Shown: in pieces, positions 5,853 through 51,861 of the stretch
Layout: each line of letters opens with the position of its first letter
Position numbering within the stretch: the stretch's first letter is position 1
Source of the DNA: Propionivibrio soli
GTDB lineage: Bacteria; Pseudomonadota; Gammaproteobacteria; Burkholderiales; Rhodocyclaceae
Assembly: GCF_025770765.1 (NCBI RefSeq)
Contig: NZ_JANZKY010000004.1
Location: forward strand, 186,001 to 250,000
Direction: 5' to 3'
Length of the DNA: 64,000 nucleotides
The notes under the pieces: generated by a model
What the model was told of the DNA's origin: nothing
The model's input: the letters and a program-made list of their open reading frames with translations, nothing else
Databases searched by the model: none
Program-made: the position numbers and the translations under genes

Positions 5853-6151
5853 GATCTCCGGTGCGGCAGGGAGAGGCTGCGGGTCATTGGCATCCGATGC
5901 GATGAAGCGGAGCGAAAAGGGAAATGGCGAGCGAAAAGGACAGCCGTCGGTGCGATGCCTCTGTCGTCCCGCGGCCGTCCCGTTTTTTCAAACCCGGAAA
6001 AATACCTGTAGCGGCAATAGTGGCAAACCGCGTGCCTGCGAAAGGCATAGGCCTGCCCCACCCGCCTTTCAGCGGGCCAGGAAGCAGGATCGCACCTATG
6101 AACAGCCCGTCGGTCAACCCGATGGTAATACCGGGAGCCCTGACCCGATGG
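5853..6151. other. Intergenic region, nothing recognised
   Basis: About 300 bases upstream of the diguanylate cyclase and downstream of the GlcG/HbpS-like gene. No small gene with a binding site, hairpin with T-run or repeat was seen. It presumably holds the cyclase promoter. Confidence 0.4.
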
Positions 6152-6706
6152 CTAAGACTCTCCGAGTACAGCGCCCGCTTTCTCCTCCCCGCGTGCCTTC
6201 CGAGCCAATGCGCGCAACGCGACCGCAACGCTACCGGCGAAGAATTCGTCGTACTCGGGAAATGCCCCGCTCACGGCGACCACGATCCCGTCCAGACAGA
6301 CGGCTCCGGCGATCAACGTGTCTCCGGCGCGCAGGAGGTGGGGAGAATCGCGCTGCACGGCGTATCCGTCGCGGCCGAGGCGCCAGGTGAGTTTTGCCTT
6401 GGCGCGAGCGAATTCGGCGTAATCGGCATCCCATGTTTTCGGGTCACCAAAGGCGCGCTCGCACAACACCGCGTCTTCGAACCTTGCTTCTCCCGGCGGC
6501 AAGGCCGGGTCCATAACGACCACGTAGAGAAATCCGCTGCCGACCACGCTCCGGTCGTCGCGTGCGACTTCAATCATAGGCGCGACGAGGTCGAGCGCTC
6601 GGTTCGCAACGTCTTCGGTCAGGTAGTGACTTCCCCGTTTCCCGTGTTTGTCCGAAGCGTTTCCGCCGGTCGCGGGTGAGGTGGCGGATTGAAGTTCATT
6701 CAGCAT
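6152..6706 (-). CDS. GlcG/HbpS-like fold protein, partner of the exporter upstream
   Basis: 184 aa, no signal peptide or membrane span. I read a possible GlcG/HbpS (haem-degrading-domain) fold: a first helix near residues 30-48, a strand with FLYVVVMDP (about 59-67), a helix carrying ARAKAKLTWRLG, and a C-terminal DGIVVAVSGAFPEYDEFFAG (about 141-160) that resembles the Gly-rich vvGavGvSG..peeDe stretch of that family. The match is by eye and needs a profile search. The start at 6706 has GGAGAG 9 nt upstream and overlaps the end of the ABC exporter gene by 11 bp, so the two are translationally coupled. HbpS of Streptomyces is a haem/redox sensor protein working with a histidine kinase, which makes the pairing with an exporter carrying a kinase-like tail notable. 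Confidence 0.6.
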   Translation of the reverse strand: MLNELQSATSPATGGNASDKHGKRGSHYLTEDVANRALDLVAPMIEVARDDRSVVGSGFLYVVVMDPALPPGEARFEDAVLCERAFGDPKTWDADYAEFARAKAKLTWRLGRDGYAVQRDSPHLLRAGDTLIAGAVCLDGIVVAVSGAFPEYDEFFAGSVAVALRALARKARGEEKAGAVLGES

Positions 6707-22300: not shown

Positions 22301-24654
22301 GCCGTCTCCGGGTGAAACCCGCTCGGCCCCCCGCTTACCGGCAACGGCGAACAAACCCGTTCGGCGTTCATCGCCTGCACGATTGCCGCCCAGCGGGGGT
22401 CGGCGGCGATATCGGCGAGTTCGGATTCGAGTTTACGGCGCCAGTTCGGGTACTCGCTGTCGCTGGCACCGGGGAGATTCACGGCTTGCAGTTGCCCGAG
22501 TACGTCCTCCAGTTGCACGGCCGCCAGCATCGCCGGCGTGCGCGCGACAAACTGGTAGACGGCCGCGGCGAGTCGCGGGCCCGGTTCGCTGCCGCGATCC
22601 TCCGGCGCGCGCACGCCCTCGCCCGACACGCCGGCGTCCGCCAGCGCGGCGAGCATTGCCGCCTTCTCCTCGCCGCGGCGCGTTGTCCTGCGTTCGTGCT
22701 CGCCGGCATCGTGATAGATGCCCAGTTCCTGACGTATGCCGATATCGTGGCCCATCCAGTAGCCGCGCAAAGTCGGCAGATCGTGGGTACCGATGACGGC
22801 CATCGCGCGACTCGGCCATTCGGCCGGCGGACGGAATGTTCCAGCAGCCGGACCTTCGTCGGCGCGCTCGAAGTACAGCGCGCGGTATGCCAATACGCCG
22901 TGGCGCAACATGGCCTCACGCACCTCGGCCGGGACGATGCCGAGGTCTTCGCCGATCACCATGCAACGCTGCGTGGAACTTTCCAGGCACAAAAGCTGAA
23001 ACAGCGTCTCCATCGGATATTGAACGTAGGCCCCCGTCGCTGCGGTCTCGCCTGAGCCGTTCGCCGGCAGCCAGAAGAGCCTGCGCAAGCCCATGATATG
23101 GTCGATGCGCACTGCGCCGGCATGCCGCATGTTTGCGCGCAACACGGCAGCAAAGGCGGCAAAACCGCCTTCGACGAGGTGTTGTGGAACTGGTGGCGGG
23201 AAGCCCCAGTCTTGCCCGGCGCTGTTCAACTCGTCGGGCGGCGCGCCGACGTGGACTGAGAGTGCATAAAGCGCCGGCTTGGCCCATGTCTCCGACCCGC
23301 CGGGATCGACGCCGACCGCCATGTCGCGATAGAGGCCGATGCGCATTCCGCGCGCCCGGGCACGCTGCGCCACGGCCTGGAGTTGCCCTTCCGCCTGCCA
23401 CTGCAGATACTCGAAGAATTCGACACGCTCGTCGTTTTCCTGCTCGAAGGCTTCGACGGCCGGTCCATTGACATCACGGTACGCCTCGGGCCACGCGGGC
23501 CAACCCCACGCTGCCTTGTCCAGGCGATGAAAATTCTCCTGCAGCGCCTCGAACAGCGCATGCACGCGCAGACGTCGTCCGGCTTCGCGTTGGAAGTCGC
23601 GGAACAGTCCGGCGCGCTGCGTACCGCGTTCCAGATGATTGGCGCGAAAATGCCGGTAGAGGAGTTCGAGGACTTCGAACTTCGCGTGCGCCACGCCGGC
23701 GTAATCGATGAGCACCAGCGCACGCAGCGCGTCGAGCCGTTCACGGAACGCCTCCGAGCCGACCAGGTCGCGCGCCTCCCTACACTCACCGAAGTCGCGC
23801 ATCGCCTCGATGTCGAGGTAGAGAACGTTGAGCCATTCCCGATTCGATGGGCTGTACGGACTCGCGCGCTCGGGGTCGTGCGGAAAAAGCGCATGCAACG
23901 GATTGACGCCGACGAAATGCGCGCCGGCATCGGCGGCGAAATCGACCAGGCGGCGTAGATCGCCGAAGTCGCCCATGCCCCAGTCGCGGGCCGAACGCAG
24001 CGCGTAAACTTGAACCGACGGCCCCCAGGCACGCTGCCCTTCGAGCACTTCGTCGGGGTCGAAACACATGCTTGGGCAAACCAGGAGGTCGGTCTCGGCA
24101 ACGACCCGCGAGCCGGAACCGGGCGCAAACAAGGTGAGGCGATGGCGCCCCATCGGCGGTTGCGTCGCGAGTACCATCGCCATGGGGATCACGTCCCACC
24201 GTTTGTCGCCGGCATCTCCTTGAGCGCCCTGCTCAGCGGCGACGGACGCAGAGGCGGAGATGGTTGCTGCCCCCGCAAGGTTGCCTGCGCTGCCACCGGG
24301 CAGCGGCCGCGCCTTCGACACACCGCGTCGTTCGCCGTCGTCCTCCAGCTTCAAACGCCAAGGCAAAGCCTGGCCGGCCATATCGGCCGGCAGACGCAAC
24401 GTCAGGCGCGGCGCGGCACCCGCTTCGACGACCACAAGCGGCGGCAGAACCCGCTCCGCATCGGCACGATGCAGATCCTCAAGCCGCTTCGCCGCTTGCA
24501 TTTCGCTGTTGTCGCTAGCGAGGGCATGCCCGAGAGCCGCCAGCAGCGCCTGCTTGGCTTCGGCCGTCACTTCTGTCCGTTTTCCCCAGCCGTCCTCGTA
24601 GACGCCGTCGATGCCTTGGTGGGCGCACAGCGCATCGAGCGCCGCGCTACTCAT
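19324..24654 (-). CDS. Fused 4-alpha-glucanotransferase / maltooligosyltrehalose synthase (MalQ-TreY)
   Basis: 1776 aa, two complete enzymes in one chain. Residues 1 to about 755 are MalQ (GH77): RIDHIMGLRR with the nucleophile Asp near 518, GEDLGIVP with the acid/base Glu near 568 and GTHDLP near 621. After a short junction (about 755-780) the TreY domain (GH13) begins PRATYRLQFHSDFRFADAE, with LRIDHPDGLSD (nucleophile, about 1127), VVEKIVGEFE (acid/base, about 1175) and STHDTKRSED (about 1420). MalQ rearranges maltodextrins; TreY turns the reducing end into a trehalosyl unit. The start at 24654 has GGAGG five bases upstream and overlaps treZ by 8 bp. Activity of both halves is expected because the catalytic triads are intact. 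Confidence 0.95.
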   Translation of the reverse strand: MSSAALDALCAHQGIDGVYEDGWGKRTEVTAEAKQALLAALGHALASDNSEMQAAKRLEDLHRADAERVLPPLVVVEAGAAPRLTLRLPADMAGQALPWRLKLEDDGERRGVSKARPLPGGSAGNLAGAATISASASVAAEQGAQGDAGDKRWDVIPMAMVLATQPPMGRHRLTLFAPGSGSRVVAETDLLVCPSMCFDPDEVLEGQRAWGPSVQVYALRSARDWGMGDFGDLRRLVDFAADAGAHFVGVNPLHALFPHDPERASPYSPSNREWLNVLYLDIEAMRDFGECREARDLVGSEAFRERLDALRALVLIDYAGVAHAKFEVLELLYRHFRANHLERGTQRAGLFRDFQREAGRRLRVHALFEALQENFHRLDKAAWGWPAWPEAYRDVNGPAVEAFEQENDERVEFFEYLQWQAEGQLQAVAQRARARGMRIGLYRDMAVGVDPGGSETWAKPALYALSVHVGAPPDELNSAGQDWGFPPPVPQHLVEGGFAAFAAVLRANMRHAGAVRIDHIMGLRRLFWLPANGSGETAATGAYVQYPMETLFQLLCLESSTQRCMVIGEDLGIVPAEVREAMLRHGVLAYRALYFERADEGPAAGTFRPPAEWPSRAMAVIGTHDLPTLRGYWMGHDIGIRQELGIYHDAGEHERRTTRRGEEKAAMLAALADAGVSGEGVRAPEDRGSEPGPRLAAAVYQFVARTPAMLAAVQLEDVLGQLQAVNLPGASDSEYPNWRRKLESELADIAADPRWAAIVQAMNAERVCSPLPVSGGPSGFHPETADIPRATYRLQFHSDFRFADAEAVLPYLAELGISHIYASPFLKARPGSRHGYDIVDHQTVNPEIGSDEDFDRYCTRVRSLGMGQVVDIVPNHVGVLAAENPWWSDVLENGPASEHADHFDIDWEPPFAELRGKVLLPVLGDQYGLVLEAGDLKLEFNAEKGEFGIRYFEHRFPIDPADYPLILGDPMSETPSRVAAVVAGVQMPPMPDDPGLATLLAALRTLPPRTVSEPLQLAERRRNKDVFKKHLAELYARLPAVRGRITARIEAFNGRAGEPESFDAMDVLLERQAYRLASWRVAADDINYRRFFDVNDLAALRIEHEDVFLATHERVFQWLQEGRISGLRIDHPDGLSDPARYFERLQSRYAEIWRARNQGAVEGSPANGGEPPALYVVVEKIVGEFEPLPADWPVHGETGYRFANFSNTLFVDAAQESRFSRVYRAFTGEARDFGEVLLDARELIMTHSLPGEVGILAYRLHEIAQRDRRTRDFTRSRLRSALMEIVAGFPVYRSYIGPRGVSETDRRYIERAVDEAARRELAGDPTVLQFVREVLLSAPAEPDPQLRELKLRFAHRFQQFTAPVMAKAMEDTAFYRYNRLVSLNEVGGDPRTFGTAVEDFHAANERAGCSHPFGLLASSTHDTKRSEDVRARINVLSEMSGAWRLALRRWGRLNAGRKMRVGAEHAPAPNDEYLLYQTMLGVWPMQSTDADLDAETASDLVARLEAYMLKAAREAKQHTSWMNTDAAYENALTTFIRRLLGAGPRRDRFLADFLPFQRLVARFGAFNSLNMLLLKLTVPGVPDIYQGCELWNLSLVDPDNRRPVDFSLARRRFAELRRDFPDANARPEVLRALVGDMEDGRVKLYVLWRALQTRQRFDRPMRFGRYIPLDVSGPAAQHVIAFARADEDGGMVVVIASRLLYGLTEGDPERVADASLWRQTVVSLPWPRAGHSLPTRWRDTLGGRVVAPSRVRNQVGIELSSLFDALPMALLVPDGE

Positions 24655-26608
24655 CGGTGCCTCCGCCGGTCACCGCTTTAGCGGGCAACACATAGGCCCT
24701 CACGGACCACGGTCCGAGACGGTTCTCTCCTGCCTCCATTTCCCCCACCGTGGCAAACGGGGTCACGGCAAATGGCGTAAAGCAGGGAGAAACGTTGTCA
24801 CCGAGATTGGCTTGCATGACAAGCGCAAATCCGTCGGCCGTCGGCCACGTGGCTTCGAACGCGTGTTCGCTTCCCGCCATCATTTTGCCGCGCCCGCGCA
24901 ACAGCCAGCGCGCCTGCGGAACGATGAAGGTGCGGCGAAGCTCGAGCAGCCCGCGATAGAACGCTAGCCACTGCCGGCCATGGGGTTCATCGCGGGCGGC
25001 CCAGTCAAGGACGCTGTCCCGGAACGTCGACTCGGCCCCCGGATCGGGGACCTCTCGGTCTTTGCCTCCAATCGAGAAATGCGTGAAGTCGCCGAACTCC
25101 CTGCGGCGTCCGTCGCGGACGGCCCGCGCCAGTTCGCCGTGGAAATTACAGAAATAGAGAAAAGGCGTCGTCGCACCAGCCTCCTCACCCATAAAGATCA
25201 GCGGCGGCGACGGCGCCAGCAACTGCACCGCCACGAGGGCGCGTAGCGCATGCTCGGGAGTCAAGGTCGTCAGCCGCTCACCGAAAGCGCGGTTGCCGAT
25301 CTGGTCATGGTTCTGCAGGAAATTGACGAACGCACTCGCCGGCAGCTGGTCCGTTCTCTCGCCTCGCGCCCCTCCATGGTAAGGAGAGACGTCGCCTTGG
25401 AAAGCAAAACCTTCGGTCAGGCAACGGAGCAATTGCGCGATCGGCCGTTCGGCGAAATCGGTGTAGTAGCCGTCACTCTCGCCTGTCAGCGCGACGTGCG
25501 CCGCGTGGTGAAAATCGTCGTTCCACTGAGCTTCGTAGCGGCCCGGTTCGCCGGGCTTGCCGAGCCGGCTCGCTTGGTTGTGCCCGTTTTCGAGGATGAG
25601 ATGAATATGGCGGTCCCGAACGGTTTCGCGGACCCGATGTGAAATTTCCTCGAGGATGTGCGGGCGCGAATCGTCGATGATGGCGTGTACGGCATCGAAA
25701 CGCAGACCGTCGAAGCGAAACTCCTGTAACCAGTAGAGCGCGTTGTGCACGAAGAATTCGCGTACTGTCTCGCTCCCATTTCCGTCGAAGTTGACCGCGT
25801 TGCCCCACGGCGTGTGGTGAGCCGAGGTAAAGAACTGTGGCGCGTACGCGTGTAGGTAGTTTCCCTCGGGGCCGAAGTGGTTGTAGACCACGTCGAGAAA
25901 AACCATCAGACCTTGGCGATGTGCCGCCTGGATGAAGTGCTTCAGCTCGTCGGGCGTCCCGTAGCTCGCATCCGGCGCGAACGGCAACACGCCGTCATAT
26001 CCCCAGCCGCGCGTTCCTGAGAAATCGGCGAGCGGCATGAGCTCGATGGCCGTAATGCCGAGTTGCGCAAGCTCGGCCAAACGGGCTTCGGCCGAGTCGT
26101 AGCGCCCTTCGGGGGTGAAGGTACCGACGTGCATCTCGTAGATCACCGCTTCTTCCCAAGGGCGGCCGCGCCAATCGGGGTCCCAATCGAAGCTCGTAGG
26201 CACCATAAGCTCGCTAGGTCCGTGAACATCGTCCGGGTTGAAGCGTGACGCCGGGTCGGGAACTTCGAGACCGCCGGCAAGGCGGAACGCGTAGCGGTCA
26301 CCGCGGCGGGCCTGGGCTACGCGGCAGGTGTGCCATCCTTCATTGGCCAAGCACGGCAGGAGCCGTCGCTCACCGTCGCTAACAATGTGGACGAGTTCGA
26401 CCCGCTCCTGCGCCGGTGCCCATAGCCGGAACTCATAACCAAGGTCGGGCAGGTATTCATTCACCGGCGCCGGGCCGAACGGCATGCGATGCACAAAGTG
26501 GGCGGGCGTCGTAGACGACGGCTGTGTTGAAGGCAGCGGTGGGCGTGACACAGACATTATTTCGGGTGCGGCGCCGGCCGCCGGGGGCGTGGGAGGCAGT
26601 TCGCTCAT
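24647..26608 (-). CDS. treZ: Malto-oligosyltrehalose trehalohydrolase
   Basis: 653 aa GH13 enzyme that releases trehalose from maltooligosyltrehalose made by TreY. A Pro-rich N-terminal about 40 residues precedes a CBM48-like domain (YEFRLWAPAQERVELV), then the barrel with GLRFDAVHAI (nucleophile Asp near 303), LILENGHNQ (acid/base Glu near 341) and NHDQIGNRAFGERL (about 435). Length fits the family plus the extra N-terminus. Start at 26608 has only a weak binding site (GAG 7-8 nt upstream). Located between glgX and malQ-treY on the same strand, with an 8-bp overlap to the latter. Confidence 0.95.
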   Translation of the reverse strand: MSELPPTPPAAGAAPEIMSVSRPPLPSTQPSSTTPAHFVHRMPFGPAPVNEYLPDLGYEFRLWAPAQERVELVHIVSDGERRLLPCLANEGWHTCRVAQARRGDRYAFRLAGGLEVPDPASRFNPDDVHGPSELMVPTSFDWDPDWRGRPWEEAVIYEMHVGTFTPEGRYDSAEARLAELAQLGITAIELMPLADFSGTRGWGYDGVLPFAPDASYGTPDELKHFIQAAHRQGLMVFLDVVYNHFGPEGNYLHAYAPQFFTSAHHTPWGNAVNFDGNGSETVREFFVHNALYWLQEFRFDGLRFDAVHAIIDDSRPHILEEISHRVRETVRDRHIHLILENGHNQASRLGKPGEPGRYEAQWNDDFHHAAHVALTGESDGYYTDFAERPIAQLLRCLTEGFAFQGDVSPYHGGARGERTDQLPASAFVNFLQNHDQIGNRAFGERLTTLTPEHALRALVAVQLLAPSPPLIFMGEEAGATTPFLYFCNFHGELARAVRDGRRREFGDFTHFSIGGKDREVPDPGAESTFRDSVLDWAARDEPHGRQWLAFYRGLLELRRTFIVPQARWLLRGRGKMMAGSEHAFEATWPTADGFALVMQANLGDNVSPCFTPFAVTPFATVGEMEAGENRLGPWSVRAYVLPAKAVTGGGTDE

Positions 26609-26728
26609 GAAAAACTCAAGAAGACAACATCATTGAAATGAAGAACCGTTGTTTGGATCAAGCGCGGCTTCCCCGTGGTCCGATGGGTCCAGAACAAACT
26701 GCTTCCGAAACAACGATACGACCCGCCG

Positions 26729-28914
<2,186 letters not shown>

Positions 28915-28918
<4 letters not shown>

Positions 28919-31278: not shown

Positions 31279-33588
31279 TTGCGCGCTCCTCAAAGCTATG
31301 CCGGCGAAACCAGCCGTTTTGCCTATGCTCCGTCGGGCGGAACGGCGGCATGGTCGCGCCCCGACAATTCTGCTCATGCAGCGAGCCTGTTCAAGGTCGG
31401 GCGCAACTGCTTCGCGGTCGGCCGCGCGCGCCGTGCCGCGCTTCTGGTGGACGGCGAAGCGTATTTCCGCAACTTCGTTCTCGCCGCGGAGCGCGCCCAA
31501 CGATCCATACTCGTGCTTTCCTGGGAATTCAACAGCACGACGCGGCTGCACTTCAATGACGAGCGCGACGGCCCGCCTTCGCGTCTTGGTGATTTTCTCA
31601 ATTGGCTGGTGCGCCGGCGGCGTGGGTTGCACATCCATGTGCTCGACTGGGATTTTCCGCTTGTCTTCGGCGCCGACCGCGAGTGGCGGCCTTTCTATGG
31701 CTACGGCTGGCGCCCCCGGCGCCGGGTGCATATTGCCTGCGACAACACTCAGCCGTTAAGCGGATCGCACCACCAGAAAGTGGTCGTGATCGACGACGCC
31801 ATGGCCTTCATCGGTGGGTTCGACTTGACGGTGCGGCGCTGGGATACCTGCGCTCACGCGGCCCAGGACAAGCGGCGCATGTGCCTGGAGAAGCCCTACC
31901 CACCGTTCCACGACATGATGATGGCCGTCGACGGCGAACCCGCGCGTGCCTTGGGTCAACTGGCGCGCGACCGCTGGCACACAGCCACCGGCCACGACCT
32001 GCCGCCGCCGATCCGCCTGCCAACGCCGTGGCCTCCAGGACTGGAACCCGACTTTACCGACATTGACATCGCTCTCGCGCGCACGATGCCTGAAATCCCC
32101 GGGCGCCGTCACGGCGTTGCCGAAGTCGAGAAGCTGTACCTCGATATGATCGCCGCCGCCAGGGAACATATCTATATCGAGAATCAGTACTTCACGTCGT
32201 ACCGCGTCGGCGAAGCGCTGGCCGCTCGTTTGCAGGAACCCGGCGGTCCCGAGATCGTCGTTGCCGTTCGCCTGTTCAGCCACGGGTGGATGGAAGAACA
32301 CACGATGCATGTGTTGCGCACGCGCCTCGTCCAGCGCCTGCGCTCGGTCGACACCTACGGGCGCTTCCATATCTATTACCCGCATATCGACGGGCTCGAC
32401 AAGGGGCTGTGCATCGATCTGCACTCCAAACTGATGATCGTCGATGACGACATCCTGCGCGTCGGTTCGGCCAACCTGTCCAATCGATCAATGGGCATGG
32501 ACACCGAATGCGACGCTGCCCTCGAAGCGCGCGGCGACACGGCGGTCCGGACGGCGATCCGGGGTTTTCGCAACCGCCTGCTCGCCGAGCATCTCGATGT
32601 CGAGCCAGAGGCTGTGGAACGCGCCATCCGCGCTTACGGGAGCTTGCACGAGGCGATCGATGCACTGGCGGGAAAGGCGCGAACCCTGCGTCGGCTCGAC
32701 CAGTTACCCGAATGGTCCGATGCGGTCATCGAACTTGCCAGTGTCGGCGACCCGGGCAAGCCTGTCTCATTCGACACGCTAATCGACGAATTCAGCCCCG
32801 AACAGTTCGCGGGCGAAGCACCCGCCGTACAGGATCCAGCCGCTTCGCGCAGCAGCCTGCGTCAGCGCGTGCTACGCATCGGTGCCATCGTCGGAGTAAT
32901 CGCCGGCCTTGCCGCGCTCTGGCGCTACACGCCGCTTGCCGAATGGGTGAATCCGGATCAAGTGACCAGCGTCGCCCGAGAGTTCGGTGACCGTGCGTGG
33001 GCCCCGCTGATCGTGCTCGCGGCCTACACGCCGGCGTGTTTGCTGATGTTTCCCCGCCCGCTGATCACGCTTGGCGCCGTCGTCGCTTTCGGGCCGCTGC
33101 TCGGCTTTGCCTATTCGGTGGGTGGCGTGCTCATCGCCGCGCTGGTGACCTATCTTGCCGGTTTCCTCCTGCCGCGCGAGACGATCCACAGTCTCGGCGG
33201 CAATCGGCTGATGCACCTGGCCGACGTGCTACGCCGGCGAAGCCTGATCGCCATGACCGCCATCCGCCTCGTGCCGATCGCCCCGTTCGCCGTGGCCGGG
33301 CCTGTGGCCGCGACGATCGGCGTGCCGCTCGTTCCTTATATGCTGGGGACGTTCTTCGGCATGCTGCCCGGCACCCTCGCGACGACCGTCTTCGGCGATC
33401 AACTGGAAGCCGTGCTCAACGATCCGTCGCGGATCAACTACGGCTTGCTCGCCGGAGCGGTTGTGCTCGTCGTCGCGGCATCGCTCATCGTTCGCCGCTG
33501 GCTGGTCACGCAACATCGCCGCCATGCCGCGGCCAAGAACGAGGGACCGACGACGGAGACGCCGCATGCGGGTAACCGGACTCGCTAA
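31279..33588 (+). CDS. Phospholipase D-like protein fused to VTT (DedA/TVP38) domain
   Basis: 769 aa. Two HKD motifs: H165-K167 in HHQKVVVIDDAMAFIGG and H382 in DLHSKLMIVDDDILRVGSAN, so a complete PLD/cardiolipin-synthase-like active site in one chain. After about residue 530 a membrane domain of five to six spans follows (VTT/SNARE-associated DedA family, about 540-735). It probably acts on phospholipid headgroups at the inner membrane. The start is a TTG (31279) because no ATG or GTG lies in frame before the conserved region; this is uncertain. The last 23 bp overlap the EEP hydrolase gene, and this PLD-VTT/EEP pair is a recurring arrangement in proteobacteria. Confidence 0.9.
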   Translation: MRAPQSYAGETSRFAYAPSGGTAAWSRPDNSAHAASLFKVGRNCFAVGRARRAALLVDGEAYFRNFVLAAERAQRSILVLSWEFNSTTRLHFNDERDGPPSRLGDFLNWLVRRRRGLHIHVLDWDFPLVFGADREWRPFYGYGWRPRRRVHIACDNTQPLSGSHHQKVVVIDDAMAFIGGFDLTVRRWDTCAHAAQDKRRMCLEKPYPPFHDMMMAVDGEPARALGQLARDRWHTATGHDLPPPIRLPTPWPPGLEPDFTDIDIALARTMPEIPGRRHGVAEVEKLYLDMIAAAREHIYIENQYFTSYRVGEALAARLQEPGGPEIVVAVRLFSHGWMEEHTMHVLRTRLVQRLRSVDTYGRFHIYYPHIDGLDKGLCIDLHSKLMIVDDDILRVGSANLSNRSMGMDTECDAALEARGDTAVRTAIRGFRNRLLAEHLDVEPEAVERAIRAYGSLHEAIDALAGKARTLRRLDQLPEWSDAVIELASVGDPGKPVSFDTLIDEFSPEQFAGEAPAVQDPAASRSSLRQRVLRIGAIVGVIAGLAALWRYTPLAEWVNPDQVTSVAREFGDRAWAPLIVLAAYTPACLLMFPRPLITLGAVVAFGPLLGFAYSVGGVLIAALVTYLAGFLLPRETIHSLGGNRLMHLADVLRRRSLIAMTAIRLVPIAPFAVAGPVAATIGVPLVPYMLGTFFGMLPGTLATTVFGDQLEAVLNDPSRINYGLLAGAVVLVVAASLIVRRWLVTQHRRHAAAKNEGPTTETPHAGNRTR

Positions 33589-44275: not shown

Positions 44276-44449
44276 TCAAAAGACGAGTTTGCCGAGGAAA
44301 ACACCGAAAACGAGTACGATCAGGAAAATGATCAGCGCGGTGAAGAAAACGAACTTGGCCAAGCCGGCAGCACCGGCGGCCAGCTTGGTGAAGCCCAGCA
44401 TCCCGGCGATCACCGAGATGACGAACAGGACAATAGCCAGCTTGATCAT
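44276..44449 (-). CDS. DUF1328 small membrane protein (YtjA-like)
   Basis: 57 aa, two hydrophobic helices (IKLAIVLFVISVIAGMLGF and AKFVFFTALIIFLIVLVFG) separated by the TKLAAGAAGL turn, the DUF1328 pattern. GGAG lies 8 nt upstream of the ATG at 44449; the larger open frame upstream is not coding. A second DUF1328 gene is at 46796-46957. These are stress-induced inner-membrane proteins of unknown function. Confidence 0.85.
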   Translation of the reverse strand: MIKLAIVLFVISVIAGMLGFTKLAAGAAGLAKFVFFTALIIFLIVLVFGVFLGKLVF

Positions 44450-44743
44450 GAAACGCACTCCTCTCTTTGTTGTTCGCGACCTCGGTGCAGCTCCGTTCTG
44501 AGTGCCATCGTCGTCGGTCTGCGGTTGCCGTAACCGGCACTTGGGCTGGCTTCCCGTACTGCACCGGGGCCGGGATTTCGCCACGTCGTCCGCACAACGC
44601 ACGAAAGCTCGGAACCCGGCGCAGCCGCGAAGCACACCTACTCCGAACGACGAGACATCCGCGTTCGACCAGCGCGCTACTTTGGCAAAGCGTATGCCCG
44701 GGTCCTAACACTCCGGGCTGCATTCCTTTGGCACAAAAAACGA

Positions 44744-46345
44744 CTAGAGGTAGTAAGCCCAGCGACGCGCGAACCATTCCATCAGCCGCGTTCCGACTGG
44801 CCTTTCGTGCCACTCGCGCGCATCCACTTCATGCGCGGCGCCCTCGTCCATCATGAAGAGTTTCTCCAGCTCACCCGCAAAACGGCGATCAAGTATGAGA
44901 ACGTCAGCCTCGTAGTTATGCACGAAGCTGCGCCAATCGAGATTGGTCGAGCCGACGCTCGACCAAACGCCGTCGATGACGGCGGTTTTCGCGTGCAGCA
45001 AAGCGTCGCGGCGCTCGAACAGGCGAACGCCGGCGGCCAGCAGATCGTCGTAATTCGAGCGGCCGGCATGGAACGGTGCCCAGAAGTCACTGAAGCCGGG
45101 CAGCATCAGCCGTACGTCCACGCCACGTCGGGCGGCATCCATCAAGGTCTGCAGTACGCGCTTGTCCGGGACGAAATAACCGTAGGTGAGCCAGATTCGC
45201 TGCCGCGCGTGCTCCATGGCCGAGAGAAGCGCAATGTACTGCTCGCTACGCTGGCTCGCCGGATCGGCGGCGACAAGGCGGATCGCCATGGTTCCGGCCC
45301 GCTCGGGCTTTTCGGCTAACCGAGCCCGGCGCTCGCCAACCTTGCGTGCCGAGGGCGGCCATGCGCCGTTCTTTCGGCCTCCGGGCGCAGTGCGTTCAGA
45401 GGCTGCGGCGACGGGAAGAGGTCCCGTGCGATCAACGCCGGACCCGCTCTCGGCGTTGTTCTGGACGCCGGCCTGAGCTTCGTCGCACCCCTGCTGCTGC
45501 CACATCGCGTCGAACAACCCGTTGAATTGACCGACGACGGGCCCACGTACCAGGACATGTGTGTCGCGCCAACCCGATTCGCGCGTTGGCGCCTTCTTTT
45601 GACGGGAAAAGGATGAGCTGCTATAGACCGCACTGATGTTGATTCCACCCGTGAACGCCACCTTGTTGTCCACGATCAGCAGCTTGCGGTGGTCCCGGTT
45701 GTTGATGCTCAGACGTTCGTCCTGCTTGAGGCGCGTTGCGGTGACCGGATTGAATTCGCAAACCTCGACACCCGCTGAACGCAGGCGATCGAAAAACTCG
45801 TCCGGAGTCGAGAGCGAACCGACGCCGTCGTAGAGGATGCGGGCCCGTACGCCTTTGGAACGCTTGGCCTCGAGAATGGCAGCAAGGCGTTCGCCCATTC
45901 CCTCCGCTTCGAGAATATAGGTCTCGAGATCGATGTTCGACCGGGCTTGCGAAATCGCGCGCAGCATCTCGCGCTGCGTTTGTGGACCATCGATCAAGAG
46001 TCGGGCGTCATTGCCAAGTGAAACAGGCTCGGTGATCGACTCCTGTACATGCCGCAGATGCTGCGCAAGAAGCCCGTTCTCTCCTTCCGGATCCAGTTGA
46101 CGCAAGGCCGCCGCCGTACGCTCCGGCGTCAAGGGTCCCTGTTCATCTTCGAGGAGAACATTGGCCGTCCGGCTGCTCGGCGCCGGCGCTCTCGTGAGAT
46201 CAACCGACTCGGCGGGCGGCAAAGCGCAGGCCGTAAGTGCCAGTCCGGCGAGCACCGCCACGCAATTACGGCGCAGGCGGAATCTCAGAAAAAAGCCGCC
46301 TGCCCAACGGCCGAAGTAGACCGAATTGCATGCGGCTGGCGACAT
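44744..46345 (-). CDS. Phospholipase D / cardiolipin-synthase-like lipoprotein
   Basis: 533 aa. A basic start and hydrophobic run end in a lipobox LTAC (about residues 36-39), so it is a predicted lipoprotein. HKD motifs: HRKLLIVDNKVAFTGG (about 216-231) and HAKTAVIDGVWSSVGSTNLD (about 449-468), both complete. This is the YmdC/ClsC-like class that makes cardiolipin or other phospholipids by transphosphatidylation. An insertion between the halves (about 285-345, Arg/Ala/Gly-rich) is variable. It is 13 bp downstream of the BON lipoprotein gene and forms an operon DUF1328-BON-PLD. The start ATG at 46345 has a weak binding site. Confidence 0.9.
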   Translation of the reverse strand: MSPAACNSVYFGRWAGGFFLRFRLRRNCVAVLAGLALTACALPPAESVDLTRAPAPSSRTANVLLEDEQGPLTPERTAAALRQLDPEGENGLLAQHLRHVQESITEPVSLGNDARLLIDGPQTQREMLRAISQARSNIDLETYILEAEGMGERLAAILEAKRSKGVRARILYDGVGSLSTPDEFFDRLRSAGVEVCEFNPVTATRLKQDERLSINNRDHRKLLIVDNKVAFTGGINISAVYSSSSFSRQKKAPTRESGWRDTHVLVRGPVVGQFNGLFDAMWQQQGCDEAQAGVQNNAESGSGVDRTGPLPVAAASERTAPGGRKNGAWPPSARKVGERRARLAEKPERAGTMAIRLVAADPASQRSEQYIALLSAMEHARQRIWLTYGYFVPDKRVLQTLMDAARRGVDVRLMLPGFSDFWAPFHAGRSNYDDLLAAGVRLFERRDALLHAKTAVIDGVWSSVGSTNLDWRSFVHNYEADVLILDRRFAGELEKLFMMDEGAAHEVDAREWHERPVGTRLMEWFARRWAYYL

Positions 46346-46358
46346 GGCAGAGTGGATA

Positions 46359-46799
46359 TCAGGTCGAGGCGGCGGGCATCGTCGGGCGCAGCGCGTTGAT
46401 CACTTCCTTTACCCCTGTCACACCGCGCACGATGGTGTCGATGCGCGTGATTTGATCGGCCGCGACTGTGCCGTTCAACGTGACATGCCCGTTATCCACC
46501 GAGACGGAAACAGCCGTTGCATCAACAGATTTGTCCGCGGACAAAGCCTGTTTGATGCGCGAAGGAAGGATGTCGTCTCCCACTTCTTTGCCACCCGCCG
46601 GCGGCGGATCTTTGAGGACGGCGACATCGGTTGGAGGCGCTTCCGGCGCCTTGTTGCATGCCGCGAGTCCCCAGGCGGCAAAGACGAGCCACAAGGCAAC
46701 GACGATCCCGAGTCCGCGATGAACGCCCGGCGAAGCTTCCGCCGGGCAAGAGAATGCGGCCGGGCCGTCGGCCAAACACAATGAAGTCGCTCCGCTCAT
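46359..46799 (-). CDS. BON-domain lipoprotein
   Basis: 146 aa. A hydrophobic helix ends in a lipobox GLAAC near residues 44-48, preceded by an unusually long 28-residue N-terminal part. The BON domain (about 74-140) has [33 protein letters not shown] and [12 protein letters not shown], the OsmY-like pattern that binds membranes or phospholipids. The ATG overlaps the DUF1328 stop by 4 bp. Typical osmotic-stress envelope protein. Confidence 0.85.
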
Positions 46800-46957
46800 C
46801 GTCTCATCAGGCTAAGAATGAAGGAAACGAGCGCGAAAATGAGGAACACGTAGAACAGAATCTTCGCGATCCCAGCCGCGCTTGCCGCGATACCGCCAAA
46901 GCCGAACAGTGCGGCGACGATGGCGATGACAAGAAATACTCCAGCGTAGTAAAGCAT
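46796..46957 (-). CDS. DUF1328 small membrane protein, second copy
   Basis: 53 aa with two hydrophobic helices around a [15 protein letters not shown] turn, clearly of the DUF1328 family and related to the copy at 44276-44449. AAGGAGA is 5-6 nt before the start at 46957. First gene of the DUF1328-BON-PLD operon, coupled to the BON gene by ATGA. Confidence 0.87.
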
Positions 46958-47481
46958 GGCATCTCCTTTTTCACGTGGTTGCTCCACCCCGACGCCCACG
47001 CCTGGCAAGCCGCGTGCCGTCGCCCCCAATCCCGCTCCCCGAGAGCTTCGCGCCGTTTTCTCACGTTCCGCGACGGCGGCCAAAGGGTACAAGTGCAACA
47101 AAAGGAATAACTTCCGAGTTACCGCGAGCGACCAGACGCTACGAGCCTGAATCGGCCCTCTCGCGGGCACGAAAGCTGCCCGGCGAGTTCCAAAGCCGAC
47201 TGGCTGAGAAATCCTCACCATCAGGTCTCGGCTTCCGTTTTTTGGAAGACATTTGCCACGGACGCGGTGTTTCTTATTGATCTTGCGACTTCGCACTGAG
47301 AAGAGGGGCGCCCCGAGAGACAGGACGCCTGTCCCGCCGCATGCCGCGCTACACGCGCTCCTGCCCCGGCAGGAGCCTTGGCACATCCCTAAGCCGGCAG
47401 CGCGCTCCGCTGGCGGAACAACTCAACAAAGCCGCCCCGGCGCGCGGACCATCCGACGCTCTCGACCATTCTGAAAAGACG
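46958..47481. other. Divergent region with leader hairpins before the peptidase operon
   Basis: About 520 bases between the DUF1328-BON-PLD operon (minus) and the C39-like peptidase operon (plus). The peptidase frame is open back to an ATG at 47341, but that stretch has no binding site and reads as low-complexity. Two hairpins (47319-47333 and 47357-47376) lie in the probable leader. No precursor-peptide-like small gene with binding site was found. Confidence 0.45.
47319..47376 (+). promoter_or_regulatory. Two hairpins in the leader of the amidoligase operon
   Basis: GACAGG-ACG-CCTGTC at 47319-47333 and GCTCCTGC-CCCG-GCAGGAGC at 47357-47376 (8-bp stem, tetraloop). Neither is followed by a T-run. 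If transcription starts upstream of 47319 they would be part of the 5' leader and could affect expression; this is inference. Confidence 0.35.
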
Positions 47482-48249
47482 ATGCTGCCCAGTTCACTGC
47501 ATTTGCCACTCAGCATGCTGCCGCAGCCGACCGAGACGACCTGCGGCCCGACGTGCCTGCACGCGGTGTATCGCTATTGGGGAAGCGATGCGTCGCTGGA
47601 AACGGTCATCGGGCGCACACGCTCGCTGCGGCACGGCGGCACCTTTGCCGTGTTCCTGGCCTGCGACGCGTTGCTGCATGGGTACTCGGCGACCATCTAC
47701 ACCTTCAACATCAACGTTTTCGACCCGACGTGGTTCCGCAAACGGACGGACGTCGATATTGCGGAGCGGTTGCATGCGCAACGTGAATGGAAACGCGACC
47801 GCCGGCTGACCTACGCGACGGACGGATATCTCGAATTCCTTCGCCTTGGCGGCAAACTCCGGTTTACGGATCTCTCGCCGCCGCTGGTGCGCGGTCTGTT
47901 GCGCCGCCGCCATCCGATCATCACGGGGGTGAGTTCAACGTTCCTGTACCGAACGGCGCGCGAGTTCGGCCCGCTCGACATTGCCGACGATCTGCGCGGG
48001 ACACCATCCGGCCACTTCGTGGTCATCGCCGGCTACGACCGTCCGGAACGTAAGCTGCTCGTCGCCGATCCCTATGGCCCGCATCCCTATGGGACAAGCC
48101 GGGACTACTGGATACGCATGGACCGCGTGTTCAATGCGGTGATGCTCGGCATCATGACGCACGACGCCAACCTACTCGTCATATCCCCACGCAAGGATGA
48201 TCGGCGCGAATTCAACGTAAACGGCGACAACACCATGGAGGTCGAATGA
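47482..48249 (+). CDS. C39-like cysteine peptidase
   Basis: 255 aa with papain-like C39 layout: oxyanion Q15 and catalytic C21 in LPQPTETTCGPTCLHAVYRY, catalytic H178 in SGHFVVIAGYD and D196 in LLVADPYGP. No ABC-transporter domain and no signal peptide, so it is a stand-alone cytoplasmic peptidase or transglutaminase-like enzyme. ATG at 47482 is chosen because the conserved domain begins there; the binding site is weak. The stop overlaps the RimK-like gene by 4 bp (ATGA). Together with two ligases and an amidohydrolase downstream it probably processes or hydrolyses an amide or peptide product made by that cluster. Confidence 0.85.
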   Translation: MLPSSLHLPLSMLPQPTETTCGPTCLHAVYRYWGSDASLETVIGRTRSLRHGGTFAVFLACDALLHGYSATIYTFNINVFDPTWFRKRTDVDIAERLHAQREWKRDRRLTYATDGYLEFLRLGGKLRFTDLSPPLVRGLLRRRHPIITGVSSTFLYRTAREFGPLDIADDLRGTPSGHFVVIAGYDRPERKLLVADPYGPHPYGTSRDYWIRMDRVFNAVMLGIMTHDANLLVISPRKDDRREFNVNGDNTMEVE

Positions 48250-49724
48250 GCACCCTGATCGTCGTCGATGATCCCGACGACTGGCCCCCGGCCGCAGACG
48301 AAGCCGGCCTCACCATCGTTCCAGCCCGTAGTTACCTGACCGAACCGGCGTACGGCGAAGACCGCAGCGCCCGGGTGTTCAACCTTTGCCGTTCCTACGA
48401 TTACCAGAGCCTCGGCTACTACGTTTCGCTGCTCGCCGACGCGCGCGGCCACAAGCCGTGGCCACGGGCCGGCACCATCGAGGACTTGCAGTCGCACAAC
48501 CTGGTGCAAGTCCTTACGGCGCAGCTTTCACAGCTCGTGGACCAGACGCTGGCACCATTGAAGTCCGATCATTTCGAACTCAGCGTCTATTTTGGGCGCA
48601 ACCTTGCGCAACGCTATGACGTCCTCGCCAGTCAGTTGTTCTCGCTTCTGCGTGCGCCGCTGTTCCGCGCCACGTTCGAACGCTCCGGCGGCCACTGGCA
48701 GACCTGCGGGGTACGCCTGCTCGGCATCATGGAGCTTCCCGAAGATCATCGGCACTTCGCCGTGGGGTCCGGACTCAGCTATTTCGCCGGCCGCAACAAA
48801 CCGGGCAACGGGAATGGCCGCCACCGCTTCGAGTTGGCCATTCTGCACAATCCGCAGGGCGCCAACGTGCCGTCGAACGAGGAAGCGCTGCAGAAATTCG
48901 TCGCCGCCGCGAATGAACTCGGCATGCATGCGGAGCTGATCACGGAGGAAGATTTCGAACGTCTCCCGGAGTTCGACGCCCTGTTCATCCGCGATACGAC
49001 CTTCGTGCATCACTACACGTATCGCTTTGCACGCCGCGCCGAAGGTGAAGGGCTCGTCGTCATCGACGACCCCGAATCGATCCTCAAATGCAACAACAAG
49101 GTCTATCTCGCGGAGCTGTTGGCGCACCACAACTTGCCCGTTCCCCGAACGCTGGTCATCCACCGCGGCAACATCGAGCATATTGTGCCGCTGCTCGCCT
49201 TGCCGTGTGTTCTGAAGCAACCCGACAGCTCGTTTTCGGTGGGCGTCGACAAGGTCGAGAGCGAGGACGAGTTGCGCAAGACGGTCAACGGGTTGCTGGA
49301 AAAATCCGAGTTGATCGTGGCCCAGGAATGGCTTCCGACCGAGTTCGACTGGCGCGTCGGCATTCTCGATCGGCGCGTTATTTTTGTCTGCAAATATTAC
49401 ATGGCACACGGCCATTGGCAGATCATCGATCACAACGGCATGTATGGGCGCAGCGAGGGAAGGACCGAAGCCCTTGCGGTCGGCGAAGCACCGCAGGAGG
49501 TCGTACGTATCGCGCTCGAAGCCGCTAACCTCATCGGTGACGGATTTTACGGCGTGGACATCAAACAGACGTCGACGCGCTGTTGCGTCATCGAGGTCAA
49601 CGACAACCCGAACGTCGACGCAGGCAATGAGGATGCCGTCCTCAAGGATGCTCTCTACCGCGAAGTCATGGCGGTTTTCCGGCGCCGGCTCAAGGGCGGC
49701 AGCCCAGGTGGTGAAATATCATGA
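48246..49724 (+). CDS. RimK-family ATP-grasp ligase
   Basis: 492 aa. The N-terminal about 200 residues form a family-specific domain (FNLCRSYDYQSLGYYVSLLA; HRFELAILHNPQG). The ATP-grasp core follows: LPEFDALFIRDTTFVHHYTY (pre-ATP-grasp), NKVYLAELLAHHNLPVPRT (about 282-300), LPCVLKQPDSSFSVGV (ATP-binding Lys), EWLPTEFDWRVGILDRRVIF (metal/ATP) and CCVIEVNDNPNVDAGNED (Mg-binding E..N). RimK relatives add glutamate or other amino acids to a carboxylate with ATP. GGAGG four bases before the ATG; overlaps the genes on both sides by 4 bp. Substrate unknown. Confidence 0.92.
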   Translation: MSTLIVVDDPDDWPPAADEAGLTIVPARSYLTEPAYGEDRSARVFNLCRSYDYQSLGYYVSLLADARGHKPWPRAGTIEDLQSHNLVQVLTAQLSQLVDQTLAPLKSDHFELSVYFGRNLAQRYDVLASQLFSLLRAPLFRATFERSGGHWQTCGVRLLGIMELPEDHRHFAVGSGLSYFAGRNKPGNGNGRHRFELAILHNPQGANVPSNEEALQKFVAAANELGMHAELITEEDFERLPEFDALFIRDTTFVHHYTYRFARRAEGEGLVVIDDPESILKCNNKVYLAELLAHHNLPVPRTLVIHRGNIEHIVPLLALPCVLKQPDSSFSVGVDKVESEDELRKTVNGLLEKSELIVAQEWLPTEFDWRVGILDRRVIFVCKYYMAHGHWQIIDHNGMYGRSEGRTEALAVGEAPQEVVRIALEAANLIGDGFYGVDIKQTSTRCCVIEVNDNPNVDAGNEDAVLKDALYREVMAVFRRRLKGGSPGGEIS

Positions 49725-51055
49725 ACGGACGTGACAACGAGATGGACGCGACGGTCCCCACCGCTTCCTCGCAAGACCGAGGACATATCGAGCAGCGGCC
49801 GACGCCGCGCCTCGCCTTGCTTCCGGCCTTCGCAGGCTATGGCATAGAAATCGAGTACATGATCGTCAACCGCGCGACACTCGACGTGCAGCCTATCGCC
49901 GACCAGCTCCTGACCGATCCCGAAGGGAGCCCGACCAATGACGTCGAACACGGAAACATCGGCTGGTCCAACGAACTAGCGCTGCACGTGCTCGAGTTGA
50001 AGAACATCCGCCCCGTGCCGGATATGACCACGCTGGTCGGCGCTTTTCAGGATGAAGTGCGCACGATCAACGATCGCCTCGAAGCCCTCGACGCCTGCCT
50101 GATGCCCGGCGGCGTGCACCCATGGATGGACCCGCGCCGCGAAACGCAGCTTTGGCCGCATGACCATGCCGAGATCTATCGCAGCTTCGACCGCATTTTC
50201 GATTGCCGCCGCCATGGATGGTCCAACCTGCAAAGCGTGCATCTCAATCTACCGTTTGCCGACGATGCGGAATTCGCCCGGCTGCATGCCGCCGTCCGGC
50301 TCGTTTTACCGATCCTACCCGCGCTCGCCGCAAGCTCACCGTGGGTCGACGGCAAAGCGACCGGATTCATGGACTACCGTGTGGAAGCCTACCGCAAGCA
50401 TCAAGCCCGCATTCCGACCTCGATGGGTAAAGGGATTCCCGAGCCCAGTCGCTCGCCCACGGAGTATCGCGAACACATTCTGGTGCCGATGCTGAACGAA
50501 ATCACCTCGTTCGACGACGTGCTCGGCCCGGACGCCGGCGCGCTCAGTCAGGAATGGGTCGACGCGCGCGCCGCCGTTCCCCGATTTGCGCGCCATGCGA
50601 TCGAAGTCCGACTGCTCGACGTTCAGGAATCCACGACGTCCAACCTTGCCGTTGCAGCGGCGACGGCGGCGCTCGTGCGTCGTCTTTATGACGACATGAC
50701 GGACGCACAACTGGAGAACCCGCTGCCAACCGATTCCTTGGTGACCTTGCTGGAACGTTGTACACGTGACGCCGAACACGCAATCATCGACGACGAGCTT
50801 TACCTATCGCGGCTCGGTCTCGGCGGCAAACCCTGCGCTGCCAGCAAGCTGTGGTCGACCTTGATCGATGCCTTTCTCGCTGACGGTCTTCTCGATCGCA
50901 CCTGGTTGCCCGCGCTGACCGTGATCCGTGCGCACGGCCCTCTGGCGCGACGCCTTTCGGAAGCGCTCGACGGCGATCCTGGCCGGCTGCGCCCTGTCTA
51001 CGCGCGGTTATGCGAATGCTTACGCGATGACGCGATGTTCCTGGCCACCGGCTGA
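49721..51055 (+). CDS. GCS2-type glutamate-cysteine ligase-like carboxylate-amine ligase
   Basis: 444 aa. The GCS2 fold is recognised by GYGIEIEYMIVNRATLDVQP (about 38-57, metal-binding E-x-E), GNIGWSNELALHVLELKNIR (about 80-99), GGVHPWMDP (about 128-136), SVHLNLPFADD (about 172) and EVRLLDVQES (about 296-305). The metal-binding glutamates are in place. GCS2 enzymes make gamma-glutamylcysteine or related amides. The start overlaps the RimK-like gene by 4 bp with AGGTGG about 9 nt upstream. Pairing with RimK suggests a short amide or peptide product rather than ordinary glutathione synthesis. Confidence 0.9.
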   Translation: MNGRDNEMDATVPTASSQDRGHIEQRPTPRLALLPAFAGYGIEIEYMIVNRATLDVQPIADQLLTDPEGSPTNDVEHGNIGWSNELALHVLELKNIRPVPDMTTLVGAFQDEVRTINDRLEALDACLMPGGVHPWMDPRRETQLWPHDHAEIYRSFDRIFDCRRHGWSNLQSVHLNLPFADDAEFARLHAAVRLVLPILPALAASSPWVDGKATGFMDYRVEAYRKHQARIPTSMGKGIPEPSRSPTEYREHILVPMLNEITSFDDVLGPDAGALSQEWVDARAAVPRFARHAIEVRLLDVQESTTSNLAVAAATAALVRRLYDDMTDAQLENPLPTDSLVTLLERCTRDAEHAIIDDELYLSRLGLGGKPCAASKLWSTLIDAFLADGLLDRTWLPALTVIRAHGPLARRLSEALDGDPGRLRPVYARLCECLRDDAMFLATG

Positions 51056-51096
51056 TAACGCCGTTCGCGTATAGCGCGTTCCTGATCGTCGCAACG

Positions 51097-51861
51097 ATGC
51101 CGACCACTGGCCGCCCCTCACGTTTTCTCGTCACCTGCGAACACGGTGGCAACCGCGTGCCGGCGCCTTACCGCGCCCTCTTTGCGAGCCACCAAGCGCT
51201 CTTGAGGAGCCATCGCGGCTACGACCCGGGAGCGTTGCGTCTGGCTCGCGAACTGGCCGCCTCGCTCGGCGCGCCGACCGTACTGGCGACAACGAGCCGG
51301 CTGCTGATCGACCTTAACCGTTCCCCCGGCCATCCGCGTCTCTACTCGGAGGTCACCCGCCCCTTGCCGCTTGCGGCGCGTGAGGAAATCATGGCCCGCT
51401 ACTACCTTCCCTATCGCCAGCGCGTTGAGCGACAGGTCGGCACATTGCTGGAGCAAGGGTTTCGCGTGGTCCACCTATCGAGCCACAGCTTCACGCCGGT
51501 GCTCGACGAACAAGAGCGGAATGCCGATGTGGGCTTTCTCTACGATCCCACGCGGGAGACCGAACGTGTTTTCTGCCTGCATTGGATCGCGGCGTTGCGC
51601 CAGCGTTTGCCGGATATCCGTCTACGCCGCAACTATCCGTATGCCGGTCGCTCGGACGGCTTATGTACCTGGCTCCGCCGCCGGCATCCCGGTAACCTTT
51701 ACCTGGGCGTCGAACTCGAAGTTAACCAGCGCCATGCAACCGCTGGTGGTACCCCTTGGCAAACCTTGCGGCGGAGTATCGTTTCCGCATTGGTGGAGGC
51801 GGCCGAAATGCTTGACGCCCATGAGGTTGGCCTCAACGGACATCCCCACGCAGCTGCGTAG
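51097..51861 (+). CDS. N-formylglutamate amidohydrolase-like protein
   Basis: 254 aa. Family motifs are FLVTCEHGGNRVP (about 10-22, zinc-binding E-H), RGYDPGALRLARELA (about 40-54), LLIDLNRSP (about 69), VVHLSSHSFTP (about 119-129) and VELEVNQRH (C-terminal catalytic Glu). The zinc-peptidase-like hydrolase cleaves an N-acyl-glutamate amide. It lies 41 bp after the GCS2 gene, same strand, and completes the four-gene cluster. An amide hydrolase beside two amide ligases fits a pathway that makes and trims glutamate-containing amides; the true substrate need not be formylglutamate. Confidence 0.87.
   Translation: MPTTGRPSRFLVTCEHGGNRVPAPYRALFASHQALLRSHRGYDPGALRLARELAASLGAPTVLATTSRLLIDLNRSPGHPRLYSEVTRPLPLAAREEIMARYYLPYRQRVERQVGTLLEQGFRVVHLSSHSFTPVLDEQERNADVGFLYDPTRETERVFCLHWIAALRQRLPDIRLRRNYPYAGRSDGLCTWLRRRHPGNLYLGVELEVNQRHATAGGTPWQTLRRSIVSALVEAAEMLDAHEVGLNGHPHAAA

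Follow-up and report, generated by a model that had tools for sequence, protein, structure and literature searches.

The window analysed here, a stretch of 64,000 nucleotides from Propionivibrio soli (contig NZ_JANZKY010000004.1, positions 186,001 to 250,000 of the forward strand), carries at 47482..51861 a four-gene operon for a C39-like cysteine peptidase, an RLAN-RimK ATP-grasp ligase, a GCS2-family carboxylate-amine ligase and an N-formylglutamate-amidohydrolase-like (FGase) hydrolase. The analysis confirms that this operon is real, conserved and uncharacterised, and that it combines two amide-forming with two amide-breaking families. Its central ligase has alternative partners: RLAN-RimK proteins occur with C39 and GCS2, with or without FGase, with a GNAT that is often fused to another kind of C39 domain, or apart from both sets. 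We tentatively propose, at somewhat less than even confidence, that the operon is a cytoplasmic make-and-break system for a short, N-capped, non-ribosomal peptide.

All four genes lie on the forward strand. The C39-like protein (47482..48249; 255 amino acids) is a single-domain, papain-fold cysteine peptidase with catalytic Q15, C21, H178 and D196; its longest frame starts at 47341, and conservation among homologues starts just after the ATG at 47482. The ligase (48246..49724; 492 amino acids) comprises an alpha+beta RLAN domain (residues 27-172 by Pfam, 48324..48761) and an ATP-grasp part (residues 195-484, 48828..49697), and is followed by GCS2 (49721..51055; 444 amino acids) and FGase (51097..51861; 254 amino acids). 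ATGA overlaps at 48246-48249 and 49721-49724 join C39 to the ligase and the ligase to GCS2, and a 41-bp gap (51056-51096) separates GCS2 from FGase. Pfam assignments exceed their cut-offs (in brackets, bits) throughout: Peptidase_C39_2 42.9 (24), RLAN 163.8 (25), RimK 42.1 (21), GCS2 (PF04107) 94.3 (21) and FGase (PF05013) 98.1 (28.9). These coordinates and family calls confirm the reading frames and junctions claimed in an earlier sequence-only reading of this DNA, which had not named the RLAN domain (PF14401) or seen the alternative partners of RLAN-RimK. None of the four proteins reaches a curated NCBIfam cut-off (for the ligase, among the 25 of 26 families listed), which speaks against close orthology to enzymes of proven function; the closest approach is that of the ligase to the RimK-family alpha-L-glutamate ligase model TIGR00768 (71.7 vs 143.4 bits), all others falling well under half of the cut-off. 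GC content, examined as a check for foreign origin, displays no step at the operon, and neither consensus promoters (1 found, shuffle mean 1.2) nor terminators (3 vs 4.4) exceed shuffled sequence. A known defence system was rejected, as no PADLOC anti-phage model matched any of the four proteins at E 0.01.

Named genomes were scanned for relatives of the ligase; the best 80 of the 164 found were retained, so that fractions of 80 describe near relatives only. RLAN lies between C39 and GCS2 in 49 of these 80 loci, an arrangement hereafter called the cassette. The full order C39-RLAN-GCS2-FGase is found in 38, and one further locus has the same set with FGase about 5 kb away; in three, the contig is too short to judge FGase. 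C39 alone adjoins RLAN in two loci (L038, at a contig end, and L051, from a metagenome-assembled genome (MAG) that holds a whole cassette at L046), none of the three partners is present in 23, and six are undecidable at contig ends. GCS2 without C39 was found in none of the 80, if incomplete C39 frames (those cut short by a contig end and that of L105) are counted as C39; in L105, from a MAG labelled Nitrospirota, the C39 gene ahead of RLAN-GCS2 is a frame of only 95 amino acids (5610-5894). Judged by record titles, most carriers belong to the Betaproteobacteria (Azoarcus, Aromatoleum, Thiobacillus, Nitrosomonas, Gallionella kin and Herminiimonas); to these are added a few MAGs labelled Gammaproteobacteria and single loci whose labels read Planctomycetota (L110) and Nitrospirota (L105). 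Plasmid records matching RLAN-RimK number 26, all below 60% identity, and 11 of them cover at least 80% of the ligase.

Co-occurrence in genomes sampled from the order (349, including the host) follows the same pattern. RLAN was detected in 14 genomes, and cassette C39 and cassette GCS2 in 12 each; these are the same 12 genomes for both, and every one of them also has RLAN. In 11 of the 12, the cassette genes are near one another on a single contig, and in G562, a 600-contig assembly, GCS2 is on another contig. The two RLAN genomes lacking a cassette are G732, which has a GNAT match (167.8 bits, a 392-amino-acid frame) about 2.1 kb past RLAN, and G537, whose GNAT match is at background level only. 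Within the genus of the window, 27 other genomes, several being incomplete, yielded no RLAN match. The C39 match of genome G523 (C13:22254-22967) contains one TGA, which reflects either damage to the gene copy or an error in sequencing. Across 39 four-gene loci the gene trees agree (Mantel r 0.74-0.91; for each pair, none of 999 permutations reached the observed value), and gene order is kept across dozens of loci whose flanks differ. A chance neighbourhood was rejected on the basis of kept gene order, co-occurrence and agreeing trees, and adjacency of the four families, which the sequence-only reading had left to a neighbourhood search, is evidently not confined to this genome.

The second partnership of the ligase emerged from a phylum sample of 398 genomes, 72 of which, the host included, carry RLAN. 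Of the 74 RLAN places outside the host, 37 were taken for wide neighbourhoods, and these are the non-cassette loci described here; three more places outside the host, also taken, are all cassettes. A specific GNAT lies near RLAN in 36 of the 37 non-cassette loci, L121 being the one without it, and the matched parts are at most 335 bp apart in 35 loci and 1.5 kb apart in L139. The GNAT part resembles RimI (79.3 and 61.6 bits vs 86.4) and is often fused to a C39 domain, which is present in 24 of the 36 GNAT loci and absent from 12. The C39-like domain DUF3335 occurs in 57 of the 398 genomes, and 56 of these also carry RLAN. RLAN and GNAT fell into one component; any other gene family is shared by at most 6 of the 37 non-cassette loci. 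The loci scored with the GNAT profile, the weakest at 157 bits, were also those used to build it; in a whole-genome search the profile matched 51 of 54 genomes, nearly everywhere at about 60-81 bits, which looks like ordinary RimI background. Only one of 25 genomes in which RLAN stands apart from the cassette partners has a high match (G472, which contains L113; 198.4 bits), and a weaker match of 102.3 bits occurs in a cassette genome, G784.

Phylogenetic analysis separates the two partnerships. In a FastTree reconstruction of 117 rows, which has some long branches and no inferred root, a fully supported split divides the ligases of GNAT type (36 rows and, with them, L121) from the cassette clade (80 rows), and a quick maximum-likelihood tree of 48 of these rows likewise places the GNAT rows on one side with support of 100. 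In the clade of the window, RLAN-RimK occurs with C39 and GCS2, with or without FGase, or apart from them, and rows of the latter kind are nested among cassette rows in the larger tree. In the 48-row tree, this separated state requires four changes, and a single clade of all 13 such rows is rejected (approximately unbiased test, p 5.6e-36). Among the 25 genomes with RLAN apart, a C39 gene is found elsewhere in five, all Nitrosospira or Nitrosovibrio (L156-L160); GCS2 adjoins at each of these five sites, and the start or end of an FGase lies at the edge of the stretch taken. The trio is thus together elsewhere in Nitrosospira and Nitrosovibrio, indicating that in that lineage RLAN was parted from it by moving. 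C39 was not found in the other 20 of the 25 genomes, several of which are draft MAGs, which suggests loss. Sixty positions are at least 95% conserved in both RLAN-RimK clades (80 vs 37 rows), and none is conserved to that degree but different between them, which argues for one chemistry in both.

For analyses of the individual proteins, alignments comprised the window sequence plus 38 of 79 (ligase), 36 of 49 (C39), 33 of 47 (GCS2) and 30 of 39 (FGase) usable loci. The predicted structure of the whole ligase has a predicted local distance difference test score of 84.9, the RLAN part being mostly confident. Structure comparison of the ATP-grasp part identifies ArgX/LysX and RimK as the nearest folds; PDB matches begin at residue 192, so none spans the RLAN domain. 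By profile, the nearest solved relative is Pseudomonas RimK (E 3.2e-11). The ligase nevertheless scores far below the S6 ligase RimK equivalog NF007764 (24 vs 331 bits), and S6 modification, which the sequence-only reading had already doubted, was rejected on this score. Many ligase columns are invariant in all 39 aligned sequences, R249, R370 and N452 included. In one structural study, the residues of P. aeruginosa RimK that contact the poly-glutamate chain are given as S68, S7, R8, R64, S14, N262 and R189 (PMC10092738). Profile alignment places R64, R189 and N262 at R249, R370 and N452 of the ligase, so that three of the seven contacts named there are kept.

The GCS2 protein retains invariant columns in all 34 aligned sequences, among them E43, E45, R291, E295, R297 and D300. 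Its nearest solved relative by profile is a plant glutamate-cysteine ligase, at a weak E of 0.0022, and it falls short of the GshA/YbdK models TIGR02050 (59.7 vs 176.4) and NF010039 (63.7 vs 371), scoring lower still against eight further GshA-type models listed. A separate GshA (665.9 bits) is encoded elsewhere in the host genome. Ordinary glutathione synthesis was rejected on these two grounds, in line with the earlier view that the operon does not look like the known glutathione pathway. FGase has invariant columns in 31 of 31 sequences, including E15, H16, H126, H130, E206 and E208, and its nearest solved structure is Atu2144 (2odf; profile match E 6e-35). It scores only 24.7 bits against the N-formylglutamate deformylase HutG (TIGR02017, cut-off 278.75), and histidine degradation via HutG was rejected accordingly.

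The catalytic residues of the peptidase, described as intact in the sequence-only reading, are invariant in all 37 aligned sequences. By profile, the nearest solved relative is the C39 domain of ComA (E 0.00052), and the structural model is equally close to the glutathione-cleaving enzyme Alr0975 and to classical C39 domains. The protein remains below the cut-offs of phytochelatin synthase (PF05023, 12.9 vs 24.9 bits) and of the bacteriocin-processing C39 family (PF03412, 20.9 vs 22 bits), and its 255-residue single domain carries no fused ABC transporter. Cassette C39 proteins and DUF3335 are related but distinct subfamilies (profile match of 97.1% probability over 161 columns): PF13529 is matched by 37 of 37 cassette sequences and PF11814 by one of 37, weakly.

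Taken together, the ligase is the constant element of these loci, and the preferred scheme assigns a role to each enzyme. RimK-type ligases mostly use glutamate. RLAN-RimK would spend ATP to ligate an amino acid, glutamate being the likeliest, to a free carboxylate, and GCS2 would attach a gamma-glutamyl group to the same molecule at its free amine; the product would be of the gamma-Glu-X-Glu type. C39 may cleave (or transpeptidate) the peptide, and the FGase-like enzyme may release an N-acyl-glutamate piece. Other proteobacteria have a sister system in which a RimI-like GNAT, often fused to a different C39 domain, takes the place of GCS2 and FGase; its cap would be acetyl. Both GNAT and GCS2 require an amine acceptor, and because both acylate an amine, they may provide alternative N-caps, acetyl or gamma-glutamyl, for a RimK-made peptide. 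Throughout this scheme, we infer the substrates, the order of steps, the role of the cap and a small rather than protein-bound product. The earlier proposal of an operon that makes and trims an amide thus stands as regards its two amide-forming and two amide-breaking families, while glutamate in the product and a metabolite, peptide or protein as acceptor stay conjectural. More broadly, RLAN-RimK systems might constitute a widespread and so far unrecognised pathway for a new class of small N-capped glutamyl peptides with interchangeable acetyl (GNAT) and gamma-glutamyl (GCS2) caps, the GCS2 version being a second glutathione-like tripeptide pathway, with a phytochelatin-synthase-like peptidase and a recycling hydrolase, that possibly yields a stress or storage compound; we consider this generalisation speculative and rather unlikely as a whole.

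Several observations weigh against the small-peptide scheme. The folds nearest to the ligase, ArgX, LysX and RimK, act on protein C-termini, so a protein or carrier acceptor suits them better than a small peptide. RLAN occurs without C39 in 20 of the 25 genomes in which it stands apart, which would make the cap dispensable in some lineages, and seven of the 80 scanned loci have C39-RLAN-GCS2 without FGase on an adequate flank (one of them, L100, with an assembly gap). Among the RimK contacts named above, S68 aligns with F253 of the ligase, and S7, R8 and S14 lie beyond the aligned part. The positions of R370 and N452 (RimK R189 and N262) are presumably general to ATP-grasp enzymes, so the kept contacts speak only weakly for glutamate. 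On the peptidase side, the fit to Alr0975 is tied by Z with other families (PCAT1, 3erv, PeiR and others), Foldseek ranks Alr0975 seventh (E 1.2e-4) after PCAT1, 22oc and PeiR, and the phytochelatin synthase model is reached at E 0.01 by only three of the 37 C39 members.

The fold ranking of the ligase is better accounted for by protein modification, in which RLAN-RimK would add one or more glutamates to the C-terminal end of a host protein or of a small carrier, with RLAN docking the target, C39 trimming the tail and GCS2 and FGase editing it. We hold this explanation to be less likely than not, and nearly as likely as a small peptide product. Two other LysX entries rank lower in the same comparison (1uc9 at 23.7 and 1uc8 at 23.6), and Foldseek places D-Ala ligase first. 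Across lineages, the neighbourhood of the operon shows no recurring gene for a target or carrier; the most frequent of the other families are present in 11-12 of the 80 cassette-scan loci. A C-terminal glutamate tail would offer GCS2 or GNAT no obvious free amine, and N-formylglutamate amidohydrolases act on small N-acyl-glutamates.

A parallel thiol pathway of the glutathione/phytochelatin type, in which GCS2 would make gamma-Glu-Cys or a relative, RLAN-RimK would add a third residue and C39 would act like Alr0975, appears improbable: the host possesses its own GshA, the Alr0975 match is shared with the families named above, glutathione synthetase is placed below RimK in the structure comparison of the ligase model, and neither thiol nor metal genes were seen among the scanned neighbours. 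In exporters of ribosomally synthesised and post-translationally modified peptides, leader peptides are cleaved by C39 domains. ATP-grasp ligases make graspetides (PMC8939145), and a graspetide-like maturation system with C39 as leader peptidase would draw on both precedents. Nevertheless, the operon lacks a transporter, its ligase is RimK/LysX-like, and among 1,322 small open reading frames within 0.7 kb of cassettes, the 40 with most relatives (the downstream side contributed none) included no conserved precursor peptide; they are strands opposite C39 or frames of F07, a zinc-ribbon gene next to C39, the F07 frames belonging to one lineage. Such maturation is therefore highly improbable, and the earlier remark that no precursor gene was visible extends to the relatives inspected. 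Every family here has ordinary members, so the operon might comprise four catabolic or housekeeping neighbours (HutG, YbdK, RimK and a stray peptidase); given the low scores against the HutG, YbdK and S6-RimK models, the co-occurrence and the matching trees, this is barely credible.

Flanking genes vary among lineages. F07 occurs in 12 of the 80 loci, mainly in the Thiobacillus group, and a family seen near cassettes in 14 loci is the strand opposite GCS2. To the left of the operon (window 44276-46969, reverse strand) lie genes for a phospholipase D (PLD)-type, cardiolipin synthase-like protein, a BON-domain protein and small membrane proteins that we take to be DUF1328-like; relatives of this block adjoin the cassette in five named Rhodocyclaceae loci (L034-L037 and L039). 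Several Thiobacillus-group loci (among L041-L079) are flanked by gene families that one scanned example each assigns to DJ-1, DksA/TraR, S30AE and NMD3-like zinc ribbons, and a DnaJ family lies upstream in three Nitrosomonas loci (one scanned). Stress-type genes are thus present in these flanks (DUF1328/BON/PLD; DksA, S30AE, DJ-1; DnaJ), and no conclusion is drawn from them. In L104, an M42 glutamyl-aminopeptidase-like frame (5528-6766) lies about 0.5 kb upstream of C39, with a related frame in L109 of the same lineage. Elsewhere in the window, the stretch 19324-28918 (reverse strand) has the look of a trehalose/glycogen block: a 1776-residue protein combines a 4-alpha-glucanotransferase (GH77) with an alpha-amylase-type domain and is followed by two more alpha-amylase-type proteins; at 31279-33588 (forward strand), a single frame joins phospholipase D motifs to a VTT membrane domain.

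RLAN-RimK is widespread in the phylum sample, yet open-access papers, subscription papers being mostly outside the search, yielded nothing on RLAN with ATP-grasp or on RimK, GCS2 and formylglutamate amidohydrolase together; the papers listed otherwise dealt with single families. Should the product be a small peptide, a metabolite common to Azoarcus relatives, Thiobacillus, Nitrosomonas and others has so far been overlooked; should a protein be tagged instead, a second glutamylation system exists beside RimK. The partner swap offers homologous ligases with two different caps, open to direct experiment. The RLAN domain is reportedly named from the 2009 amidoligase survey of Iyer et al. (Mol Biosyst 5:1636). 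A fusion of GNAT with DUF3335 is credited to that survey in a later paper (PMC10318531). The survey may well already draw the present neighbourhood; the present analysis adds counts for the co-occurrence, the swap between GNAT and GCS2, and the finding that RLAN has repeatedly become separated from its partners.

Compared with known systems, the operon resembles several in part. In the Pseudomonas Rim system, RimK glutamylates S6 and RimB trims the tail, and LysX and ArgX act on LysW. The operon shares with the Rim system the RimK fold and the logic of pairing RimK with a trimming protease, but adds RLAN, GCS2 and FGase, has C39 in place of RimB and lies far under the S6-RimK cut-off. Its ligase differs likewise from LysX/ArgX, scoring 57.5 vs 275.6 bits against LysX (TIGR02144, LysX_arch), and the operon has no LysW carrier gene, the genome at large not having been searched for one. 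Glutathione synthesis together with Alr0975 offers the same three kinds of enzyme, a GCS2-type ligase, an ATP-grasp ligase and a papain-fold cysteine enzyme, which here form one operon, although none of the three proteins reaches the corresponding cut-offs. With the RLAN-RimK amidoligase neighbourhoods predicted by Iyer et al. (Pfam PF14401), the operon has the RLAN+RimK architecture in common. A further counterpart, the pair of GNAT-DUF3335(C39) and RLAN-RimK in other proteobacteria, differs in having GNAT for GCS2 and FGase and a fused C39 of PF11814 rather than PF13529, and shares with the operon a homologous ligase with the same conserved positions and a C39-like domain.

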